DNA of 38,322 bases, from assembly GCA_016788465.1 (NCBI GenBank), contig JAEURV010000204.1, positions 1 through 38,322 of the forward strand, written 5' to 3'. This document shows, one piece after another, positions 294 through 11,574 of this stretch (the stretch's first letter is position 1; the number at the start of each line of letters is the position of its first letter). The notes under the pieces are model-generated. The model was not told the origin of the DNA. It did not search any database and worked only from the letters and a program-made list of their open reading frames with translations. The position numbers and the translations under genes were made by a program. This DNA comes from Nitrospira sp. (GTDB taxonomy: Bacteria; Nitrospirota; Nitrospiria; Nitrospirales; Nitrospiraceae).

Positions 294-369
294 TGGTGGA
301 GGGCAGGGGAGTTGAACCCCCGACCCCTACGTTGCGAACGTAGTGCTCTCCCAACTGAGCTAGCCCCCC
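294..369 (-). tRNA. tRNA-Ala (anticodon CGC)
   Basis: The reverse strand folds into a full cloverleaf of 76 nt. The acceptor stem GGGGGGC pairs with GCCCTCC, with a G-U wobble at 3:70, the classic alanine identity element. The anticodon stem CTACG/CGTAG encloses the loop TTCGCAA, giving anticodon CGC, which reads GCG. The T-loop arm is intact and CCA is encoded at 294-296. The first 17 nt of the gene are part of the 19-bp repeat that bounds the mobile element. The gene is therefore intact, but everything upstream of it now belongs to the element. A weak promoter candidate on the reverse strand is TTGTGC (430-425) with TAACAT (408-403), spacer 16. Confidence 0.96.
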
Positions 370-371
370 AC
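353..371. repeat. attL: left copy of the 19-bp direct repeat
   Basis: AACTGAGCTAGCCCCCCAC is repeated perfectly at 7517-7535; the flanking bases differ on both sides. This copy covers the 5' end of the tRNA-Ala gene (acceptor strand and start of the D arm) plus two bases upstream. The integrase gene begins less than 100 bp away, as expected for an attachment site. Confidence 0.85.
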
Positions 372-422
372 TCTATTGAACTATTTGTTAAGGTAAATCA
401 ATATGTTATGTAACTTGCGGAA

Positions 423-440
423 TTGCACAAATGTTATACA
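423..440. promoter_or_regulatory. candidate integrase arm-site motifs at the left end
   Basis: TTGCACA (423-429) is followed three bases later by GTTATACA (433-440). The same two words recur near the right end (GTTATACA at 7430 and 7441, TTGCACA at 7493-7499) and ATGTAACT occurs at 408-415 and 7513-7520. Such shared short repeats flanking att cores are typical of tyrosine integrase or excisionase binding. The region also overlaps the possible tRNA-Ala promoter. Confidence 0.35.
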
Positions 441-463
441 TTTTTTCATATCCCACTCACTGA

Positions 464-1684
464 GTGAAATATACAGAAACCCTGAACGAAGTTCAACCGC
501 AGATGCTGAAACTACGGGACGGAAAACTTCACATCTTTCTTCGCACAGGATGTGAAAATTACTTTTACCGGTTTTTCTTCAACGGCAAATACATCACTCG
601 CACTACGAAAACCACTAATCTAGCACTTGCGAAATCCATTGGCGAAAATGCCTACGACTCCCACCGTGTGCAAAACTTTGATCCCAGTGGTAAACAGAAA
701 CTCACCTGGAATGATGCAGTTACTGGTGTGCTGCAATCATTAGAGTCCGATTCTAACCGCACAAGCCGTCTTCGTGACTACAAGATCAAATTCGGTGTTC
801 TCCGAAACTTCTTCCAAGGTATTCCGCTTCCCGACATCAAAGAACGCACTTTAGAAGAATATGTGCATTGGCGGAAACACGTCTATAAACCCGTCCATGC
901 CAACTACCACGGGATTTGGGGGGAGTCTGGGCATGAACCGAATAACAAGACCATTGCCCGTGACTTTGATGCAATTCGCAAAGTCTTGAAATTTTCCCTC
1001 CGCGAGGGGGTCATTACCAAAGTGCCAGAATTTCCTTCGCTGTCTATTATGCCTACGGCAAAGGGTTGGTTTGAACCGAAGGAAATGCGCCACTTGATTG
1101 ACACGGCATCGCAGTGGATCAAGGATGCCACCACAGAGTCCCAGAAGGACAAACGGTGGTATTGTTTTCACTACCTGATGTTTTTGTGGCGCACTGGTCT
1201 CCGCGTGGACGAATGTTTATGCGTGACATATCAAGATGTGAAACCTGATCGCACTGATCCGACTCTGTGCTATATCACCGTTCGGGGCGGCAAACTTGCC
1301 TATCGGATGAAACCCACGCAAACGATGGGGTTTCTCGGTGTGATGAAAGTTATGGAACGGCGACGCAAGAAGTGCCCTGATTACACTCCAAGTGACCACA
1401 TTTTCCCAGACAATCCCCGTGAACTGGTGGAAGAACTTCTGACGAAAGCGGGATTGCTCTACGACGAACGAGGCATCAAACGCACTGCCAAAAGTCTACG
1501 GCACACCTTCATTATGGAACGACTCAGAGCAGGGGTCCGCGCGTTCACGATAGCAAAAAACTGTCGCACCAGTGTCAAACAAATTGAGCAGCATTATGGC
1601 TCCTATCTCACCCCAGAAATGGCAAAAGATGAACTCATCCGGAAACGACCACGCAATCAACTGCGGATGGAGGATGAAGAATGA
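464..1684 (+). CDS. tyrosine recombinase (site-specific integrase)
   Basis: This 406-residue protein would catalyse integration and excision at the 19-bp repeats. The catalytic domain fills the C-terminal half. Box I is seen as TGLRVDE (Arg247), the beta-hairpin lysine is probably Lys277 in VRGGK, and box II is KSLRHT (Arg346) with Lys343 where many relatives have His. The nucleophile is most likely Tyr378 in EQHYG, a layout seen in integrases whose LGH motif is degenerate; here Arg368 occupies that His position. The N-terminal part fits a SAM-like arm-binding domain. The start is GTG 464, with no clear ribosome site; ATG 503 is an alternative. Its stop overlaps the resolvase start by 4 bp. 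It lies 92 bp from attL and reads inward. Confidence 0.93.
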   Translation: MKYTETLNEVQPQMLKLRDGKLHIFLRTGCENYFYRFFFNGKYITRTTKTTNLALAKSIGENAYDSHRVQNFDPSGKQKLTWNDAVTGVLQSLESDSNRTSRLRDYKIKFGVLRNFFQGIPLPDIKERTLEEYVHWRKHVYKPVHANYHGIWGESGHEPNNKTIARDFDAIRKVLKFSLREGVITKVPEFPSLSIMPTAKGWFEPKEMRHLIDTASQWIKDATTESQKDKRWYCFHYLMFLWRTGLRVDECLCVTYQDVKPDRTDPTLCYITVRGGKLAYRMKPTQTMGFLGVMKVMERRRKKCPDYTPSDHIFPDNPRELVEELLTKAGLLYDERGIKRTAKSLRHTFIMERLRAGVRAFTIAKNCRTSVKQIEQHYGSYLTPEMAKDELIRKRPRNQLRMEDEE

Positions 1685-2271
1685 CCAAACGCGTCGCCAT
1701 CTACGCCAGAGTCAGCAGGACACAGCAAGATACGGAAGCGCAGATCGCGGAATGCCAGGCATATGCTCAACGATGTGGGTACGAACTAGCGGGGGTTTAT
1801 CAAGACAAGATCAGCGGCATCACAAGCAAAGATGATCGCCCTGAATTGACCAGGCTCCTAGAGGATGCGTTTGCCAGGAAATTTGATATGGTTGTTTGCT
1901 ATTCAATCGACAGAATGGGCAGAAGTCTCAAACACTGTTTGGACATTTTGGAATCCCTCAAATCTCACCGTTGCGATTTCATTTCCATCAAGCAACAGAT
2001 CGACACCAGCTCCCCCACTGGGCAATTAATTTTTAACATCTTTGCTTGTCTGGCATCTTATGAACGAACCCAGATCCTTGAGAGAACAGCATTGGGCAGG
2101 GAACGGGCAAAGGCAAGGGGTGTCAAGTTTGGTCGTCCCTCAAAGATGAATTCTTCGGTGGCGGAAGCAGTGAGATTGTTACGGGAAAAGGGGGCAGGGA
2201 TCAAGGAGATAGCAAAATCCCTGGAGATTGGGGTCGGAAGTGTGTACAAGGCACTCAGGATGGTTGCGTGA
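1681..2271 (+). CDS. serine recombinase (resolvase/invertase family)
   Basis: This 196-residue protein has the full small-serine-recombinase layout. The catalytic domain starts with YARVSR (nucleophile Ser12), carries YSIDRMGRS with conserved arginines near residue 80, and leads through the long E helix (ASYERTQILERT) to GRPSK. A C-terminal helix-turn-helix of the Hin type follows at about 150-195. The family resolves or inverts DNA at short dimer sites. The ATGA overlap with the integrase stop means the two recombinases are translated together, which is uncommon. It might resolve multimers of a circular form or take part in excision; which of these cannot be told from sequence. Confidence 0.93.
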   Translation: MTKRVAIYARVSRTQQDTEAQIAECQAYAQRCGYELAGVYQDKISGITSKDDRPELTRLLEDAFARKFDMVVCYSIDRMGRSLKHCLDILESLKSHRCDFISIKQQIDTSSPTGQLIFNIFACLASYERTQILERTALGRERAKARGVKFGRPSKMNSSVAEAVRLLREKGAGIKEIAKSLEIGVGSVYKALRMVA

Positions 2272-2440
2272 TGGGGCAGAACCTGGTTCTAAAGTGGTTC
2301 AAGCAGCGACTGCTTACCAAGTTTCTTCTCCCTATCAAAGTGTCCTGTAATTACCCCATAGTGGATTGCTTGCGTCCGCTATCATCCCCGGATAGACTTG
2401 GAGCCTCCATGCACTTCTCGCGCTTATCGAGTTTATAAAT

Positions 2441-3772
2441 ATGGAACAACCCGAGGTTCCTGATCGTCACTTCCAGATCCTCGTTTACGGAATCGAGCAG
2501 AAGGGTCTTACTCCCCCAGCGCAACCAATCATCACCCCACACTACACACTCACTTTTGAGCATTTGAAAACTGTGCGTCTCTTTCAAGAATTTGATGGAG
2601 TAATTCTGTTTCAGGGCACTTTCGAGCAATTCGAAATGAGACACGGACCCATGACTTCATACCTTCACCATTCGTGTGACCAGGATGAACTAGATAAGAG
2701 AAAGAAGGAAGCGGCTTTGCTTCAGAAGAAAGGTGGAGCGCTATGCTTTCTACTCACGGACCAATTTTGTGATAACGATTCCAGGAGTACGAGAGATTTC
2801 AGATACACCGATCTCACTAAGCATCATCTGAATGTCCACAACTTCTATCGGAATAACTTCTCACTACGAGATACCCACCTTACTGTGAAGGTCGATGACT
2901 TCATGAGGTTTCTAGAGCGATACGGTGCTGCGAGTAGTTACTTTAAGAACTACAACAATGATCTCGACTGTCGCTGCATTGTAGAATGCGGTGGGAATAT
3001 GACCGGTATGGTGCTACATAAGCGTAGCTACTTTCTTCCAACGCTTGTCCCCGACAATCGACTCGAAGCGATCAGAGAATACTTCGGTGTCCTGGCAGAT
3101 TCCCTCGTATCATCGTGGACGAAATTGTTCCAGGTATTACCGGAATGGACCAATGCATTCCAGTTTGATGAGGAGAAGCACTTGCATGACGAGCGCAACA
3201 CTCTCGCTGCACGAATGAAATGCATTGATGATCGGATCGAGTGTCTCAAGAGTTACAAATCGATACTTGCTCTTTCTCACCAAGAACTAGTGAACAGCAC
3301 AATAAAGGTTTTCCGTGATGGGCTTGGTATTGCAGTTGATCCCGCCGACGAACTACGAGAGGATTTTAAACTTCTTAATTCCAACAAGAAACCTTTGCTG
3401 CTGTGTGAGGTCAAAAGCACAAACAGGGGAGTTGCTCGCGAACATGTCAATCAAGCAGACTCCCATCGAGAAAGATCAGGATTCGATCCGCGATTCCCTT
3501 CGCTTCTGATCATCAATACAGGTGTAAAGAAGGCTAGATCGGTAGCGGAAAAAGATGAGAAGATCGCAAGGGAACAGATTCAACACGCAAGGCGCAATAA
3601 CATTCTGATCATCCGGACACTGGACCTCTTATTTTTGCTGCGGCAATATCTCGCGAAGCTGATCTCTCGTGACGAAGTGGTGAAGATTTTGACTACCAAC
3701 TCCGGCTGGCTCCGTGTGAATCAGTCGAAGTGGTGGGTGGTTAAAGGGGATGAAAGTGAAGCTTCTTCATAA
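2441..3772 (+). CDS. uncharacterised protein with C-terminal PD-(D/E)XK-like nuclease domain
   Basis: The protein has 443 residues. The last 150 or so fit a restriction-endonuclease fold: a helix (about 279-295), EDF at 307-309, then LLLCEVKS (Glu323-x-Lys325), HVNQAD (336-340) and a later strand LLIIN. Asp308 with Glu323/Lys325 would be the metal site. The N-terminal 110 residues alternate strands and helices (DGVILFQG, GGALCFLLTDQF) and resemble a Rossmann-like sensor domain. A helical, partly coiled segment (240-280) joins them. It follows the resolvase by 169 bp with no good ribosome site; an in-frame stop upstream makes ATG 2441 the first possible ATG. A lone nuclease-like cargo gene in a mobile element suggests a defence role, which is inference. 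Confidence 0.75.
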   Translation: MEQPEVPDRHFQILVYGIEQKGLTPPAQPIITPHYTLTFEHLKTVRLFQEFDGVILFQGTFEQFEMRHGPMTSYLHHSCDQDELDKRKKEAALLQKKGGALCFLLTDQFCDNDSRSTRDFRYTDLTKHHLNVHNFYRNNFSLRDTHLTVKVDDFMRFLERYGAASSYFKNYNNDLDCRCIVECGGNMTGMVLHKRSYFLPTLVPDNRLEAIREYFGVLADSLVSSWTKLFQVLPEWTNAFQFDEEKHLHDERNTLAARMKCIDDRIECLKSYKSILALSHQELVNSTIKVFRDGLGIAVDPADELREDFKLLNSNKKPLLLCEVKSTNRGVAREHVNQADSHRERSGFDPRFPSLLIINTGVKKARSVAEKDEKIAREQIQHARRNNILIIRTLDLLFLLRQYLAKLISRDEVVKILTTNSGWLRVNQSKWWVVKGDESEASS

Positions 3773-3899
3773 ATCCATACTCTTCCTGCAATCCACATAG
3801 CCGTTTGATCTAGATCTCTACCTACTCCTTCATCCATTAGTGTGACCATGACAGGATAATTGACCAACTAGTTTGGTTGACCCTACTTGAAGTCATCTC

Positions 3900-4100
3900 C
3901 TACTCAGGAACCGGCGGCACCAAGCGCACGGCATAAGTTCCAGGTTCTGGAACATCTTCTCTGATTTCCACAAGCCGATCTTTGTCGGGATTCTGATCCT
4001 CAAGAGCATGGAGGAAATCTCCCAGGGACATGACAACTGCATCGTCATGAAGGGAAGAGAAATCGCTTCGTTCCCGAATATATTGCTTGAATGACTTCAT
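3900..4100 (-). CDS. small uncharacterised acidic protein
   Basis: This predicted 66-residue protein starts at ATG 4100 behind GAGGGG, one base after the stop of the ribbon-helix-helix gene, so the two are probably translationally coupled. A longer frame to 4151 exists but would overlap the upstream gene. It begins MKSFKQYIRER, has an acidic middle and ends in a Pro-rich tail. No family was recognised. Its place directly after a ribbon-helix-helix gene would suit a toxin or partner, but nothing in the sequence looks like a known toxin. It is the last gene of the leftward set and faces the nuclease gene tail to tail. Confidence 0.6.
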   Translation of the reverse strand: MKSFKQYIRERSDFSSLHDDAVVMSLGDFLHALEDQNPDKDRLVEIREDVPEPGTYAVRLVPPVPE

Positions 4101-4101
4101 T

Positions 4102-4302
4102 TTATTCCCCTCGGTTAAGAATGTTGGGCAATCGGCTCTTGTGGTAGGCAAGTATGGCTGGAAGTTCCACCTGACGGATGATGGCGAGATTGCGAACTAT
4201 GCTCTGTCTGATTAGAGAGGAACGGTTGGTGTATGTTTCATCGGCAATATGATCTAGTTCAATGAGTAATGATTCCGGAATTCTGAGAATTATGGAAGGC
4301 AT
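4102..4302 (-). CDS. ribbon-helix-helix (CopG/Arc-type) DNA-binding protein
   Basis: This 66-residue protein opens with the beta-strand SIILRIPESLLIELD, followed by two helices with the turn TNRSSLIRQSI. That is the usual layout of the RHH domain, which dimerises and inserts its strand in the DNA major groove. The start ATG 4302 is preceded by GGAGG at a good distance. It is followed immediately by a small unknown gene and preceded by a second RHH gene. Likely roles are copy-number control of the Rep protein, autoregulation or an antitoxin; the sequence does not choose among them. Confidence 0.82.
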   Translation of the reverse strand: MPSIILRIPESLLIELDHIADETYTNRSSLIRQSIVRNLAIIRQVELPAILAYHKSRLPNILNRGE

Positions 4303-4460
4303 ACAACATCCTCCATGGTTTCGCGTCTATCTTCTGTATTTATCCTTTCCTGGTTTTTGAGGTAGTGAGGTTCATGGTTTCCTCCCAATTTGTTGTCTGG
4401 CTTTTATTATCAGTTGCCAATCCAGCAAGAACCTTTCTATTTCGGCATACATGATTGGCG

Positions 4461-4649
4461 TTAACAGAAACCTGATGTCTGTTTTTCCTCTGGTGATCCG
4501 GATCTCCCGTGACTTTTTAAGCCTTCTGTCACCAGATCTCTGACACAGGCGCTTCGGTTCAGAATTCGCTTAGATGCCAGGGCATCGATTTCTTCCAGCA
4601 GGTCTTTAGGTAGGTTGACTGAGACAATGGTGCATTGTGGAAACTTCAT
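4461..4649 (-). CDS. second ribbon-helix-helix protein
   Basis: This 62-residue protein carries the RHH signature: strand TIVSVNLPKDLLEEIDAL, then helices around LNRSACVRDLVTEGLKS. GGAGT precedes ATG 4649 at normal spacing. The C-terminal 15 residues are polar and probably disordered. It lies between the Rep gene and the other RHH gene on the same strand, with a 158-bp gap downstream that could hold a promoter or operator. The two RHH proteins share only the fold pattern by eye, so a recent duplication is not obvious. As the gene next after Rep, it is a candidate repressor of replication or transfer. Confidence 0.82.
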   Translation of the reverse strand: MKFPQCTIVSVNLPKDLLEEIDALASKRILNRSACVRDLVTEGLKSHGRSGSPEEKQTSGFC

Positions 4650-4762
4650 CTGTGACTCCTTTGTTTCTGGTGATTGTGCAGGAACTACGGAAAATGGGCA
4701 GAGCTATGACAATAGGCATTGTGCAAAGATATGTTCAGGAAGCAAGTGCTGGCGATCAGTCA

Positions 4763-5380
4763 TCAACCTATACTTGCGGTTCCTTGCTTGTGTTGGAATT
4801 TCTTGCGAAATGTGGGGGAAACTGTCAGTGCAAATTCTTTTCTGTCATCCTTGAGATTCTTGGTGCCGTAATAGGTTGCACCTGCAGCAAAGTAGATTTC
4901 CTTGAATGCTCCCCTTGGTCGTATATCGGCTTTGGGAGCAAAGTACCGAGTGGCTTTTGAAAACCCGGTGACGAATTTAGCCTTGTCTAGCCCCTTCAGA
5001 TTTACTAAAAGATGAGCGTGAGCGAACCCATCTTCATCTTTCTCAACAAAAGCCACCCATTCTGGACGCTCTTCCCCCTTACATGCCCAATTACGTCCCA
5101 ACAATTCCTTGCACACTCTGGCATCCATCACCCTTAACCGGTTTTCCACGTCACTTATCGAACCCCACGGAGCAGATATCACATTCTTCAGGAATATCCC
5201 GTCACCATTCATATCTTTGGTTGTGCATGGAATCTGCTTTTGACGAAAGTTCACTGAGACAAACAAATCCCAAGGGTACCGTTTAAGCCATGTGACATAA
5301 GCTTTTCGCACCGGATCGGTATCCAGTTCCCAATATTCTTTTTCCCAATCAGCGGGATATGTGAATTCGGTGTTGTTCAT
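4763..5380 (-). CDS. HUH-type rolling-circle replication initiator (Rep)
   Basis: This 205-residue protein shows the three motifs of single-tyrosine HUH endonucleases in order. Motif I is a hydrophobic strand WDLFVSVNF (37-45). Motif II is HAHLLV (His121 and His123), which binds the metal ion. Motif III is YYGTK (Tyr171 as likely nucleophile, Lys174). Such enzymes nick an origin and stay bound to the 5' end during rolling-circle replication or strand transfer. No helicase domain follows, so host helicase would be needed. The start ATG 5380 lacks a good ribosome site. The 359-bp non-coding stretch upstream is the natural place for its origin. A mobilisation relaxase is the alternative, but the length and YxxK spacing favour Rep. 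Confidence 0.8.
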   Translation of the reverse strand: MNNTEFTYPADWEKEYWELDTDPVRKAYVTWLKRYPWDLFVSVNFRQKQIPCTTKDMNGDGIFLKNVISAPWGSISDVENRLRVMDARVCKELLGRNWACKGEERPEWVAFVEKDEDGFAHAHLLVNLKGLDKAKFVTGFSKATRYFAPKADIRPRGAFKEIYFAAGATYYGTKNLKDDRKEFALTVSPTFRKKFQHKQGTASIG

Positions 5381-5739
5381 AATGCTTATTTATGTGTCGG
5401 AAGTGCCAAAACAGCTCTCAGGACCAGAAAAAGTGAAATTTATTTTTGCACTGCTAATAGGGGGTGTAATTAAAATTGAACCCAATATGTTCGCTTTTTA
5501 TTGGCGCAGGGCTGGCAGAGAGGGGCTACGTTGAGCACTCGCTCCCGTTCTCGGGGATTGCTTCAAAACCAATTGGAAGTGGCTAGAAAGGTTGGTTCAG
5601 AAAGTCCAAAATATCAGGACGAGCCAAACAAGCGTGAAATCAACAAGTTAGCAAAGTAGTAAGACGACGGGAAGGAGTGGTTCAGATCTTATGACTTTCC
5701 AAAATTCGTCTTATGACGCAATGCACTAAGTGTTCAGGG
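5381..5739. other. intergenic region with iteron-like repeat and hairpin; candidate origin
   Basis: No gene was found in these 359 bp. TCTTATGAC occurs at 5687-5695 and 5709-5717, starting 22 bp apart (two helical turns). The second copy lies in a small hairpin, CGTC (5707-5710) TTAT GACG (5715-5718), placing TTAT in the loop. TAAGAC at 5660-5665 is a partial inverted copy. It lies directly upstream of the Rep gene, and rolling-circle origins commonly combine a Rep-binding repeat with a hairpin nick site. The repeats are short, so this is a suggestion only. Confidence 0.3.
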
Positions 5740-6246
5740 TTATTCACTCAGTCCACTTATCAAGCGGAACTCACTAACGCTTGAAAAGCGATTTGCTGAC
5801 GACGGTGATCTTTCCAAATTGGCGAGTTGGACATGGTACCTGCCAATCTCAGTTTCATCCCCTGCAATTCCTAAAAAGTTACATCCATCAACCCAGAACC
5901 GTTTGTCAGGGGTCAGGAAAACCACCCCCCAATGCCCTCCCCACTTTTCCACCTTATTGATAAAGTTCACACCAACACTCCACCACATTTTAGTAGCACC
6001 ATGTAGGGACACTTCTATAGTTACTGCTCTGTATTCTAAGTGGTAATGATTGCCTGATCTTCCTTCTTTATGAACTTTTCCTCCTGCCTCTCGGAACTCT
6101 GAAAGGAACTGTTTGACCAAGGCGTTACCTTCCTTCTCTCCCTCTTCCTTCTTCTCCTCATCAAGCACCTTCATGATCATGGATAACGATTCCTGTGTGG
6201 GTGTCATTGTCATAGATCCTTTCCCTTTTAGGAGAAACATTTTCAT
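5740..6246 (-). CDS. uncharacterised element protein
   Basis: This 168-residue protein is not recognised. Residues 1-50 are charged and helical, with a Lys/Glu-rich run. The middle (about 55-130) looks like a compact alpha/beta domain with many aromatics, for example YHLEYRAVTIEVSLHG, MWWSVGV and WGVVFLTPDKRFWVDG. The start ATG 6246 has GGAG seven bases upstream. An alternative ATG at 6213 also has a purine-rich site, and would remove 11 residues. It is followed by the Rep intergenic region and preceded by the HTH gene. The domain layout could suit a nucleic-acid-binding or nuclease-like fold, but no catalytic motif is clear. Confidence 0.65.
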   Translation of the reverse strand: MKMFLLKGKGSMTMTPTQESLSMIMKVLDEEKKEEGEKEGNALVKQFLSEFREAGGKVHKEGRSGNHYHLEYRAVTIEVSLHGATKMWWSVGVNFINKVEKWGGHWGVVFLTPDKRFWVDGCNFLGIAGDETEIGRYHVQLANLERSPSSANRFSSVSEFRLISGLSE

Positions 6247-6292
6247 GAGATGTCTCCGTAACGATGGTCACTACTGAGACGGAATCTGTGAC

Positions 6293-6889
6293 CTATACTG
6301 TCATGGCAGACTTTGCCTCGGCATAAGGAACCAAATCCAGCACATAACGTTTCCCTTTCTCCACTTGGCGTATCCGAAGACACAAGCCAGACTCTATATC
6401 CTTTTTATGTGTGCGAAACCATTCGGTGAGACCACCTTGCACATATTTACCCTCAGTAGGCGCACCTAATTTTGCTCCATCGGATGCTGATGTGACTTGC
6501 GTTTCTATGTCACCACTGACGGTTTCCATGGTGAACGACACTTTATAGCCTGGGAAAAACGTGCGGACGCTATTGGAAAGGGGGATGAGGGAATACGCAA
6601 TGGCACTCCGAGGGTTCGTCAAGCGGACGAACAACTCTCTTTTGTCATGTGACAAACGCCATTCATTTCTGCCCCGCAAGTAGTCTGAATGGGAAGGGGG
6701 TGTGGGCGCGGGAGAATCCGTGCGAGTCTCACCTTCGGTCCATCTGATAACCTGATCCTTCCTGAACCGAATCGCATCTCCCACTCTGAAGTGAGGGATC
6801 TTGGATTCCTTTGCGAGATTTGTGGCAGCATCAACACTGACTCTTAGGAACTTCGCCACATCGTCAAGAGTCCAAATTTCAGGTGTCAT
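6293..6889 (-). CDS. excisionase-like HTH protein with unknown C-terminal domain
   Basis: ATG 6889 follows GGAGT at good spacing, giving 198 residues; an upstream extension to 7024 is open but unlikely. Residues 5-50 read WTLDDVAKFLRV...IPHFRVGDAIRFRKDQVIRW, the pattern of winged-helix excisionase/MerR-like domains that bend DNA at att sites. A Pro/Ser-rich linker follows. Residues 80-195 form a second, strand-rich domain with LFVRLTNPRSAIAYSL and RYVLDLVPY that I do not recognise. Most excisionases lack such an extra domain, so this protein may be a regulator of the element rather than, or as well as, its recombination directionality factor. It is the first gene of the leftward set. Confidence 0.72.
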   Translation of the reverse strand: MTPEIWTLDDVAKFLRVSVDAATNLAKESKIPHFRVGDAIRFRKDQVIRWTEGETRTDSPAPTPPSHSDYLRGRNEWRLSHDKRELFVRLTNPRSAIAYSLIPLSNSVRTFFPGYKVSFTMETVSGDIETQVTSASDGAKLGAPTEGKYVQGGLTEWFRTHKKDIESGLCLRIRQVEKGKRYVLDLVPYAEAKSAMTV

Positions 6890-7075
6890 GTGAATACTCC
6901 TTTGCTTGAATAGGACGACGAGGAGAAAGATATCCTGAAGAAGATCTAATAGTAAAGGACTTCTTAGAAGTTCTTGGTTATGGCGTCCTATGTCTTTTAT
7001 GGCGTTGTAGAGAATGGTCTCCATGTTGGGGATCGTTCAAATCCAATGCGCTTCAGATTCGCGGCAGATAATGGT

Positions 7076-7318
7076 CTAAATCATCTGCTGAAGTGTTCTA
7101 GAGATGGGTGAGTGCGAATTTCTGCGAAGAGCTTGAATCCTCTTTCCTGAGCGGTTTCTTGAGGTTGGAAAACTGCCTTTGATCGTTTCGGCTCTCCTAT
7201 CCTTCATGCGCGATAATTGCTGTGCCCCGATAGTCAGGTTCACCAGTTCGTCCGATTTCATTCTGGCGGTCAGGTGCTTCCCATAGTGCTGCGAAATAAT
7301 TTTCACCGAAGTTCCGCA
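7076..7318 (-). pseudogene. 3' remnant of a second tyrosine integrase
   Basis: Read leftward from 7318, the translation is ECGTSVKIISQHYGKHLTA and on to KSDELV, near 7241. This matches the C-terminal end of the element's own integrase (NCRTSVKQIEQHYGSYLTP, then KDEL) including the nucleophile region HYG. No integrase core can be read upstream: the frame continues to a stop near 7395 but without the RHT box. The frame runs on to a stop at 7076 as an unrelated tail. It is therefore the severed end of a related integrase, left by an earlier insertion or by recombination at the same tRNA. Confidence 0.7.
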
Positions 7319-7429
7319 TTCGTGAGACTCAGCTTGAAAGATGAGGATTCTGGAACTACAGAAATCAAGCTGGTGAAGGGGGAGGATGAGGTAACTTTAT
7401 TGAGGTGGGGGGTAGAGTAGTTATACAAA

Positions 7430-7499
7430 AACGACGATGAGTTATACAGTCATGTGCTGGAATGTTCAGATTATGTCAATATAATCAACAAGTTGCACA
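7430..7499. promoter_or_regulatory. candidate integrase arm-site motifs at the right end
   Basis: GTTATACA occurs at 7430-7437 and 7441-7448, with starts 11 bp apart (one helical turn), and TTGCACA at 7493-7499. Both words also occur beside attL. Paired direct repeats in phase next to an att core fit recombinase or excisionase binding sites. Confidence 0.35.
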
Positions 7500-7516
7500 T
7501 AGCTTTCTGATCATGT

Positions 7517-7535
7517 AACTGAGCTAGCCCCCCAC
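7517..7535. repeat. attR: right copy of the 19-bp direct repeat
   Basis: This is a perfect copy of 353-371. It holds only the first 17 nt of the tRNA-Ala gene plus two bases upstream, not a whole tRNA. The sequence to its right should be the original upstream region of the tRNA before insertion. Confidence 0.85.
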
Positions 7536-8191: not shown

Positions 8192-10476
8192 ACTATGGAG
8201 TGCTCCTTATAAGCTTGAAGTACCTCTAATAATGTAGACTTCTTGACCGGCTTGGTAACATGGGTATTACACCCGGCTTCCAGAATGCGAGCGCCTTCTT
8301 CCTTTAATGCCAGTGCCGTGAGCGCAATGATCGGGGTCGCGGGGAGGTCGTGGTCTTGTTCCCATGATCGGATTGCTTTTGTTGCATCACAGCCGTCCAT
8401 CACGGGCATTTGGATGTCCATTAAGATCAGATCATAATGCGTGGTTTTGACTTTCTCGACGGCAATCCCCCCATGGTCTGCGACGTCGAGGAGATAGTCG
8501 GTCTTTTTCAGATAGGACCTGATCAAGAGTTGGTTGTCAGGTGAGTCCTCGACCAGAAGGATCTGAAAAGGTCGTGTTGAAACACTCGGCGATAGGTTCA
8601 TGGTTTCAGGGGGCGCTGTAGGCGGAGGGACTCCTTTTTTCCGGCCAATCGCGATGCTCATTGTTTGGAGCAGATCTGCGCGTCGAATCGGTTTGATCAG
8701 ATAGCCACCGAGGCCAAGGTCGTAAGTGCGGGCAATATCGTCAGCCCAATGGTCCGAGGTCATCATAACCACCGTCAAGTCGTTTCGATCGGATGACCTG
8801 AGGAGTCGTTCCACAACCTCAAACCCGTCCATCTCGGGCATTCGGCAATCAAGCAGCATCATGTCATAATCCTGCTGCTGTTCTCGTGCCATACGGAGAG
8901 CTTCCAAGGCAGCTTGCCCGTTTGCCACATCTGTGACGTGAGCTCCACAGGCACTCAATGTTTCATGAAGGATCCGGCGGTTCGTCGGATGGTCATCCAC
9001 GACTAAGACATTTACTCCGGCAAGATCGATTGGCGGAGTGGGTCTCTGAACGAGAGGGTCCGACTGAACTTGAAGAAGGAGCGAGCAGTGGAACGTACTC
9101 CCTTTTCCCACGGTGCTCTCTGCCCAAATCCGACCCTGCATCTGTTCCACAAGACGTCTGGTAATCGCGAGACCAAGCCCTGTCCCCCCATACTGCCTGG
9201 TCGTCGAGGCGTGGGCTTGTGTGAAGCTGTCAAAGATAGACGTGAGGTTATCGGCAGGAATTCCGATTCCCGTGTCACTGACGGAAATTCGAATTGCGCC
9301 AGGACTCTTTCGGTCAGGATCATTGATGACGCATACTTCAACGCTCCCTCTTTCGGTAAATTTGATGGCATTACCGAGGAGATTGATGACGATTTGTGTT
9401 AATCGCGTCGGGTCGCCGATCAGGCGGCACGGTACCTGTTGGTCGATATGAGCTGTCAGCTCGATCCCTTTTTCATTGGCACGCAAGGCCAATATGTCGA
9501 TGGTTTTATCCAATACCTCGCTGAGGTCGAACTCAATGGATTCCAATTCGAGACGTCCTGCCTCAACCTTGGAAAGATCGAGAATGTCATTGATTAAGTT
9601 AAGCAGCGTTCCTCCCGCACGTCTGAAGATTCGTAAATACTTGCGTTGATCAGGGGTCAGCGATGTCTCCCAGAGGAGGTCAGCCATCCCGATAATCGCA
9701 TTCATCGGCGTTCGAATTTCATGACTCATGCTGGCGAGGAATTCACTCTTGGCACGATTGGCTACCTCAGCAACTTCTTTGGCGACACGAAGCGCCCGCT
9801 CGACGTGATGTCGTTCAGCTGCTTCAAGTGCGAGGGTTGCGAGGGTTGCCAGTAGGCAACAAAGATGTATGTCTTGTTGACTCCATCGTCGAGTTTTTCC
9901 GACCGATTCGGCGCAGAGTACCCCGACCAGCTTTCCCTTCCGTCTGATCGGCGCACTCAGTGAGGATTGAATCTTGAAGCGAGTGAAGTAGAGGGGGGCC
10001 AGATTGCAGGTTCGTGGATCCTGTGAGGCATGTTCTACCGAGAGAGCCCGCCGTTCGCGATCCAGTGATCGAAGATATGCAGAATAGTCCTTGGATTTAA
10101 AGATCGTTCCTGGACTGGAGTGTTCTCGACTCGATTCGGAAAGATCAAGAAGTATGAGTTCCCCCTGGTCTTCAGAAAGCAGCCATGCGCTGGTTCGTTT
10201 GACTCGGAGAAGCTTGGAACAGGTTTCTGAAATGGCGCGGAACGCATGGACTAGGTCGCCACTGCTCAAAGCTTCGCTTTGGGCCAGCTGATGAAGCATG
10301 TCCTGGTACTGTTTCAGCACGGCCGTTGTGTTGCGTTTGGGTGCAGGTGGAGGCAAGGAGCGGCCTGGAGACTTCTGGGTCGTGCGCCCTCGCTTGGGAT
10401 TGGAACGAGGAGATCGCGGGGACTGAGTGGAATGTAAAGCCCGTGTGTCAGATGTTATCCGTCGATGTCGTGGCAT
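8188..10476 (-). CDS. hybrid sensor histidine kinase: GAF, HisKA, HATPase, two receivers
   Basis: The protein has 762 residues and no membrane segment, so it senses in the cytoplasm. A basic Ser/Pro-rich tail (1-50) is followed by a GAF domain (about 75-215). HisKA carries SHEIRTPMN with His252. The ATPase shows an N box ([10 protein letters not shown], about 365), DTGIGIP (401-407) and GGTGLGLAI (430-438). Receiver 1 (about 488-605) has DDHP and phospho-acceptor Asp543. Receiver 2 (about 638-755) has VEDSPDN and Asp687 in [10 protein letters not shown]. Both receivers keep their conserved Lys. With the following Hpt gene this gives the full set for a BarA/ArcB-like relay. The signal bound by GAF is unknown. 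Confidence 0.95.
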
Positions 10477-10569
10477 GAGCCCATAAGTATTTAAGGAATG
10501 GGTAAGCCCTCGATAGGCGCCGCTTGAGCTATCCTGCAGACTGGGACTGTATCATCTGTCACTTGGCAA

Positions 10570-11574
10570 CTACGTGTTCGGCGAATCTTGCACCAATGAC
10601 AATATGCTGGCTGATCTGGTCCTGTTGCGCCCTTCTTGTTTGGCTTGATAGAGAGCTTGATCTGCAGCCTTCACAAGATCCGTAGGAGAGGAGTGTCTGC
10701 TCGGGACTACACAGGCGTATCCGACGCTGATGGTCACGGGTTGTCCGTCTGCTTGTTGGATGCCGAGCGCCTCAACGCGTCGACGAAGGCTTTCGGCGAC
10801 CTGTGCGGCACCGTCAATCCCTGTGCCGGGGAGTACCGTAACGAACTCATCTCCTCCGTAACGTGCGACGAGATCGCCGGGACGATTCACGGCACTCGAA
10901 ATTGCCGCGCAGACCTGCTTCAGACATTCGTCCCCGGCGGTGTGTCCCTTGGAGTCGTTATAGGTCTTGAATCGATCGATATCAAACATGATCAGAGATA
11001 ACGGGGTAGACTCGCGCAAGGACCGTCGCCATTCCTGATCGAGGAAATCATCGAATTGGCGTCGGTTGGTGATGCCGGTCAATCCGTCCAGACAGGAGAG
11101 TCGAAGCAACATCTGATTGGCTTCCTGAAGTTGACGCATAACCTCAAGAAGTTCGTGCTCTCGCGCGCGGCGGCGGTCGATCTCGTGAACAAGTCGGAGT
11201 ACCGATCGGACTCGCGTGAGGAGCTCGATCTTATTGATCGGTTTGGCGACATAGTCCATCGCACCGGCGGCGAACGCCAACTGAAGATCGACAGGGTCTG
11301 TCTTCATGGTCACCATGATGATGGGGGTGTCGCGGAAACGGTCGACGGCCTTTATCTGGCGACAGGCTTCGATGCCGTTCATTTGCGGCATGAGCATGTC
11401 CATGAGGATCAGGTCAACACGTGCGAGGCCGTGTTTCCCTCCATCCAGTCCCAGCTGTTTGAATGCGGAAGCTGCGCAGTCGGTTGCGATGATATGTTCG
11501 TAGCCGGCTGCAGACAAGATGGTCTGGAGCAAGAGACGATCATCCGGCGAATCATCAACGAGGAGGATGCTCAT
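10570..11574 (-). CDS. response regulator diguanylate cyclase (receiver-GGDEF)
   Basis: From ATG 11574 the protein has 334 residues; a TTG at 11595 would add seven. The receiver (1-120) has DDSPDD at the acidic site, phospho-acceptor Asp59 in LILMDM and a Lys in AKPI. A coiled linker (about 125-155) leads to a GGDEF domain with intact RYGGDEF, so it should make cyclic di-GMP from GTP. RPGD sits five residues before GGDEF, fitting the RxxD product-inhibition site. This is the PleD/WspR-like layout in which phosphorylation drives dimerisation. It lies between a kinase/Hpt pair and another receiver on the same strand, suggesting one signalling cluster. Confidence 0.94.

Follow-up and report, generated by a model that had tools for sequence, protein, structure and literature searches.

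Introduction

Shedu is based on restriction endonucleases (REases) with variable N-terminal sensory modules, and both standalone and sensor-fused REases are described near BREX-related loci in one report (PMC12839542). The same report indicates that, among DUF499-centred BREX-related systems, the loci devoid of a helicase-nuclease fusion have other nucleases nearby (PMC12839542). The E. coli Shedu protein EcSduA is described as a tetramer in which an N-terminal clamp binds DNA ends, after which the PD-(D/E)XK domain nicks (PMC12904381).

What many N-terminal domains of such sensor-plus-nuclease proteins recognize is a current topic in phage immunity. A protein combining an N-terminal domain for which we found no named relative with a recognizable nuclease fold makes this recognition question testable. 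Here, we analyze such a protein, encoded in a 38,322-nucleotide stretch of Nitrospira sp. DNA (contig JAEURV010000204.1, hereafter the window). We computed its open reading frame, the selection acting on it, its fold, catalytic residues, and domain layout, as well as the boundaries of the element carrying it and the exchange of the cargo slot. These features lead us to propose that the protein is probably a one-protein, sensor-gated immune nuclease that a small integrative element carries in its cargo slot.

An Intact Gene under Purifying Selection

The initial annotation had placed an unrecognized protein at 2441-3772, and this position proved exact: the open reading frame (+ strand) begins with an ATG, encodes 443 aa, and contains no internal stop. 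Another species of the same genus (genome G147) has a homologue that is 81% identical across its full length, and the ATG/MEQ start is common to both proteins. Between the two genes, dN is 0.11 and dS 0.56, the silent difference being about five times the replacement difference. A chance open reading frame is thus ruled out, and the gene is maintained by selection. This purifying selection (dN/dS about 0.2) supports a role in defense. The window protein, N-terminal domain included, has no match in Pfam, NCBIfam, or PADLOC (at E 1), and a search of PDB sequences with it returned nothing significant.

An Integrated Element in a tRNA Gene

The gene had been described as carried by an element, and we confirmed this carriage. 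Indeed, a 7.16-kb insert (353-7535 of the window) is bounded by 19-bp direct repeats (Table 1), and in nine of the ten loci examined in the genus the site is empty, i.e., the tRNA gene runs straight into the sequence that follows 7517. Of the further loci in the genus, eleven in number, this check covered ten, L061 being left out and L054 lacking the tRNA. Integration is more usual at the 3' end of tRNA genes; the window element lies instead in the 5' part. The nuclease gene had also been called the only obvious cargo gene, which is broadly right, except that the minus strand also encodes small ribbon-helix-helix (RHH) proteins, a rep-like protein, a 168-aa protein of no known family, and an excisionase-like HTH protein. 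The HAHLLVN motif, read by eye, makes the rep-like protein a probable replication initiator or relaxase. Adjoining the right repeat, a 76-aa frame (7076-7306, minus strand) resembles the C-terminal end of the integrase encoded by the element itself (QHYG...) and may be left over from an earlier insertion.

Table 1. Positions in the window of the element's features and of the parts of the nuclease gene.
Feature	Position	Strand	Evidence
tRNA-Ala (CGC), integration target	294..369	-	tRNA call
Left 19-bp direct repeat, 5' part of tRNA-Ala(CGC)	353..371	.	repeat comparison
Tyrosine integrase	464..1684	+	Pfam Phage_integrase E 2.6e-4, below cut-off; XerD-type matches
Serine recombinase (resolvase/invertase family)	1681..2271	+	Pfam Resolvase E 3e-43
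443-aa protein: sensor-like N-terminal domain, P-x-W linker, long helix, C-terminal PD-(D/E)XK nuclease	2441..3772	+	ORF, 81% G147 homologue, structure
N-terminal domain, residues 1-232, unnamed	2441..3136	+	no family match; profile match to four distant members
P234-E-W236 linker motif, invariant in 15/15 members	3140..3148	+	core alignment
Long helix, residues 243-277	3167..3271	+	AlphaFold2 model
PD-(D/E)XK nuclease domain, residues 279-439	3275..3757	+	AlphaFold2 pLDDT, FokI structural match
D308 (codon GAT)	3362-3364	+	residue numbering, core alignment
E323-V-K325 (GAG 3407-3409, AAA 3413-3415)	3407..3415	+	numbering, core alignment
Q338, invariant in 15/15 members	3452..3454	+	core alignment
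Small protein, 83 aa, retained in G147 element	3900..4151	-	comparison with G147
Ribbon-helix-helix protein, 66 aa, backbone gene	4102..4302	-	RHH_1 E 9e-4, just below cut-off; block conserved in G212
Ribbon-helix-helix-type protein, 62 aa	4461..4649	-	PHROG 4738 transcriptional repressor E 3.5e-9
205-aa protein, HAHLLVN (HUH-like) motif	4763..5380	-	no Pfam match; block in G212 at 73% DNA identity
168-aa protein, family unknown	5740..6246	-	no Pfam match
Excisionase-type HTH protein	6293..7024	-	HTH_17 E 6.4e-9; excise domain
Right 19-bp direct repeat	7517..7535	.	repeat comparison; empty site in relatives

A Predicted FokI-Like Nuclease Domain

We ran AlphaFold2 on two family members, the window protein and the protein of a Dadabacteria locus (L036), with a four-row alignment consisting of these two proteins and of a Deltaproteobacteria protein in two pieces. 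Both models are confident in the C-terminal third and not in the remainder. For the window protein, the pLDDT of ten-residue blocks ranges from 73 to 89 over residues 281-360 and from 74 to 92 over residues 371-430, dropping to 44 in between, at 361-370; the Dadabacteria model resembles it in this respect. The top structural match is the FokI cleavage domain (Z 11.7 with an rmsd of 4.3 over 150 residues for one model; Z 11.9 and 3.6 over 145 for the other), accompanied over the two models by the BspD6I small subunit (Z 10.1 and 10.7), HindIII (8.1 and 8.6), EcoT38I (8.7 and 8.1), E. coli SduA (8.3), and B. cereus Shedu (8.0 and 7.8). Can2 is also found among the matches of the C-terminal fold and, alongside FokI, BspD6I, EcoT38I, HindIII, and Shedu, supports a defense role. 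The search of viral structures gave no match below E 0.001.

The restriction-endonuclease fold and an acidic residue followed by a (D/E)-x-K motif, both characteristic of the PD-(D/E)XK superfamily, are found together here. As modeled, the C-terminal third is a PD-(D/E)XK fold in which D308, E323, and K325 occupy the motif. Both the fold and these three residues had been proposed from the sequence; the first is borne out by the confident core and the FokI matches, and the numbering of the second is exact, down to the codons.

An Unnamed N-Terminal Domain and a Long Helix

As had been anticipated, the N-terminal ~230 residues form a separate domain. It recurs in several phyla, and no reliable name was obtained for it by searching PDB sequences, Pfam at E 10, and the two structure models. 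Its pLDDT is mostly below 50 in the window protein and, in the Dadabacteria model, reaches about 60 for residues 1-50; this low model confidence counts against the defense reading. A profile built from five near members matches one built from four distant ones with an E of 8e-5 (for a single comparison) and a probability of 61%. The strand-helix order of the Dadabacteria model, together with a 'DYDVVII ... GG.IIVC ... G.V.LLP' pattern, suggests by eye, and with low confidence, a Rossmann-like/GATase1-like layout, as in class I amidotransferases. A glutaminase (Pdx2) came fourth in one Foldseek list, but its E of 0.24 was too weak to rely on, and none of the searches bore the layout out. Downstream of the P-x-W motif, the modeled long helix would likely form a coiled coil and serve in dimerization.

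A Nuclease Core Used as a Module

Our core alignment comprises fifteen members. Ten possess the long N-terminal domain (the window protein; G147, G157, G253, G302, and G331; and the Dadabacteria L036, Deltaproteobacteria L035, Fusobacterium L031, and Halobaculum L032 proteins), and five have just the P-x-W/nuclease core in common with them (L045, L048, L049, L071, and L073). N359 is, like P-x-W and Q338, conserved in all fifteen. The catalytic glutamate is found in 11 of the 15, the exceptions being a stop codon (L035), K (L073), N (L071), and T (L048), and the position of K325 is occupied by K (9), E (4), R (1), or I (1). The glutamate is intact in nine of the ten members with the N-terminal domain, the tenth having a TAA there, which supports a defense role. 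This in-frame TAA of the Deltaproteobacteria locus (10961-10963) falls exactly on the glutamate codon, with the frame intact on either side; it is either a natural inactivation or an assembly error. On the other hand, the G157 relative has a weaker active site (N for D308 and R for K325), and this counts against defense.

The core is found with differing N-terminal parts and thus constitutes a module. It is fused to a winged-helix-like start with a sub-threshold TrmB match in L045 and to MshEN in L048 (L049 being assigned MshEN through its likeness to L048), and stands without any added N-terminal part in L073. A PilZ-DUF4388-DnaJ protein also has a P-x-W/nuclease-like core, with N replacing the catalytic glutamate (L071, 7385-9787, minus strand), a possible non-defense use of the module. 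The absence of the catalytic glutamate from four of the fifteen members counts against defense, and the PilZ-DUF4388-DnaJ and MshEN fusions among these four look regulatory.

The protein is present in 2 of the 79 genomes of the genus, a rarity that also counts against defense. The single-protein search retrieved 4 of 395 genomes at E 6.3e-4 or better (G000, G147, G157, and G331); most of the 43 genomes that it listed in total were chance matches. The core profile found members in 8 of 390 genomes of the phylum, a rarity that counts the same way. Matches came from 3 of 57 genomes for the phylum to which L036 belongs and from 4 of 297 for that of L035. Two of these last four (L046 and L047) were dropped, as these chain-length-determinant-like coiled-coil proteins match in the helix alone. 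Single-protein pattern scans, which are narrow, confirmed no relative among 33 stretches from genome contigs and 2 from viral contigs; an alignment-based scan of genome contigs gave two relatives from 105 stretches, and three further narrow pattern scans of viral contigs (83, 20, and 63 stretches) gave none. Phage records contained no relative either, so that no virus-borne copy was found in the phage records and in the viral contigs covered by these narrow scans. In plasmid records, the window protein retrieved one relative at E 0.2 (later E 2e-124, by a profile that includes that relative), the G331 protein one, and the G157 protein none. Our literature search found no description of the nuclease family, which is weak evidence of absence since most subscription papers lie outside its coverage.

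An Exchangeable Cargo Slot

The G147 copy of the gene belongs to another element, which has its repeat (33 bp plus 14 bp) at a gene that by eye looks thioesterase-like. The G302 relative lies in an element about 9.9 kb long, with a repeat spanning the 3' end of a tRNA-His gene. Between the window and G147, a 2.8-kb block (1670-4452, from the integrase end to the RHH gene) containing both the serine recombinase and the nuclease is 77% identical, the tyrosine integrases being different. This association would favor a role in element housekeeping, i.e., a structure-specific nuclease aiding integration, excision, resolution, or replication with the serine recombinase, and Hjc-type resolvases are indeed present among the weaker structural matches. 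We nevertheless regard housekeeping as unlikely. Related integrase and recombinase pairs are found in two more genomes of the genus, G212 (at tRNA-Lys) and G394 (at tRNA-Arg), and no homologue of the nuclease was found in these genomes, while homologues from other phyla come without such a recombinase in the stretches listed. Moreover, pS between the window and G147 is 0.39 for the nuclease and 0.76 for the adjacent recombinase (1681-2271); the two genes have therefore not always moved together, and this suggests that they were exchanged separately inside the element.

The sibling elements count in favor of an immune nuclease. G212 matches the window at 1431-2260 (recombinase side, 69% DNA identity) and 4119-5446 (RHH/rep-like side, 73%), and between these flanks it encodes a GmrSD_N protein (PADLOC NsnA E 2e-27, PD-T4-2_A E 1.5e-19), which supports defense. 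Since the shared flanks enclose different genes, the nuclease gene sits in an exchangeable position, and this position holds a defense-type gene in at least one clear sibling. Such a slot, framed by backbone blocks on both sides in a small element, is also a place to seek further defense genes. Besides the GmrSD_N protein, the G212 cargo (L098, 7239-13408) comprises a 204-aa protein without a name, an SNase, and a metallophosphoesterase of 757 aa; together they may form an uncharacterized defense set. Downstream of the G394 recombinase, PIN_8 and Schlafen AlbA_2 proteins likewise support defense, and an Mrr gene lies further on. In this cargo (L097, 4543-8387), a membrane-like 231-aa protein precedes these two, in the order PIN_8 then Schlafen AlbA_2, and a 217-aa protein without a name follows them. 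No direct repeats were found for the G212 and G394 elements, which leaves the G394 end unplaced relative to the Mrr gene.

Genomic Neighborhoods of the Relatives

About ten loci, taken without a matched background, make up the neighborhood evidence. In the Deltaproteobacteria locus, which comes from a MAG, the relative starts 18 bp after a BrxHI/HmaA/DrmD-type SNF2 helicase, which supports defense; an HmaC/DUF499-type ATPase comes first there, then PglZ, a protein that by eye looks PIN-like, pieces of methyltransferase, the helicase, and finally the relative. In G331 (L039), an Mrr-type REase overlaps the end of the relative and is followed by a methyltransferase recognized by eye from its TSPP motif. 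A KAP NTPase adjoins the Fusobacterium relative on the other strand, and in G253 (L070) a T5orf172 gene with a PADLOC PDC-S57 match ends about 90 bp before the relative. These three neighborhoods likewise support defense. No defense neighbor is evident for the Halobaculum relative, carried on a haloarchaeal plasmid, nor for those of G157 (L038) and Dadabacteria (on a 6.3-kb contig), the last two counting against defense. In L038, similar Nudix genes (3087-3710 and 10446-11087) flank the stretch with the relative, a pair that suggests an insertion with duplication. Homologues are not confined to housekeeping contexts: several have restriction or BREX-related genes as neighbors or belong to integrated elements, in keeping with the defense role suggested by the initial annotation.

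Integrated elements carry the gene in the window, G147, and G302, and the Halobaculum relative is on a plasmid; the nuclease could accordingly target mainly rival plasmids or integrative elements rather than phages. Other relatives adjoin restriction and BREX-related genes, and we consider such a dedication to inter-element competition to be improbable. With FokI as the best structural match and the G331 relative sharing its operon with an Mrr-type REase and a motif-identified methyltransferase, one could also think of a restriction enzyme proper, cutting specific sequences and paired with a methylase. This is very unlikely: a Pfam scan of the six main element proteins revealed no methyltransferase, and the G331 operon already has another REase. 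Finally, a catalytically dead regulatory or DNA-binding protein, as the loss of the glutamate in 4 of 15 core members that all keep P-x-W, Q338, and N359 might suggest, is hardly credible for the window protein, in which D308, E323, and K325 are intact and on which purifying selection acts.

Proposed Function

An immune nuclease thus remains our preferred reading, and the gene would most likely guard against phages or rival mobile DNA. FokI-type cleavage domains need a dimer or a larger oligomer. In the window protein, the PD-(D/E)XK domain would cut DNA, and the long helix after P-x-W would bring it into a dimer or larger oligomer. The N-terminal domain would act as a sensor keeping the nuclease inactive and releasing it on a sign of infection, be it the end of a DNA molecule, a protein of the phage, a signaling nucleotide, or a rival element. 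We infer these four properties, i.e., DNA cleavage, oligomerization, N-domain gating, and protection of the host or of the element, from the sequence and the models.

Comparison with Known Systems

The chances seem to us about even that the protein represents a separate, undescribed family of single-gene defense nucleases, combining an unnamed, probably Rossmann-like sensor, an invariant P-x-W/long-helix switch, and a FokI-like PD-(D/E)XK core. Such a family would extend across several phyla of bacteria and into the haloarchaea, and in this genus it would be one occupant of an exchangeable slot for defense cargo within a family of small integrative elements. The system had been put forward as undescribed; it is indeed absent from the family models searched, but the one-gene design joining a sensor to a PD-(D/E)XK nuclease is already known from Shedu.

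The type IIS cleavage domains of FokI and BspD6I are the best structural match, but no sequence relation to them is detectable, the N-terminal domain differs, and no methyltransferase was found in the window element. The only methyltransferase, identified by motif, lies beside the distant G331 relative, and membership in a restriction-modification system is thus not supported. Among BREX and BREX-related systems, standalone PD-(D/E)XK effectors offer another comparison, given that the Deltaproteobacteria relative directly follows a BREX-related SNF2 helicase; the window gene, in contrast, stands alone on its element, away from any BREX or BREX-related core (ATPase, methyltransferase, PglZ, or helicase). 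As for the AHJR-like REases (PF18743), the Fusobacterium relative matches them over the nuclease core below threshold (E 0.008, 16.2 bits for a cut-off of 26.1), and the window protein has no match.

Shedu (SduA, DUF4263/PF14082) is the closest in design, with one gene, an N-terminal part for which we assume a sensing role here, and a C-terminal PD-(D/E)XK nuclease. The structural likeness of the modeled cores to Shedu (Z 7.8-8.3) is lower than to FokI (11.7-11.9), and the window family has its own P-x-W linker and Q338/N359 pattern. By sequence, no PF14082 match was found at E 1 and no SduA model appeared among the PADLOC matches, and comparing profiles with those of three SduA_C proteins from the phylum gave no significant match (probability 0.5%, E 0.11). 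The comparison is therefore a functional one, and the best explanation by analogy is that the window protein would work like Shedu while not being detectably Shedu by sequence.
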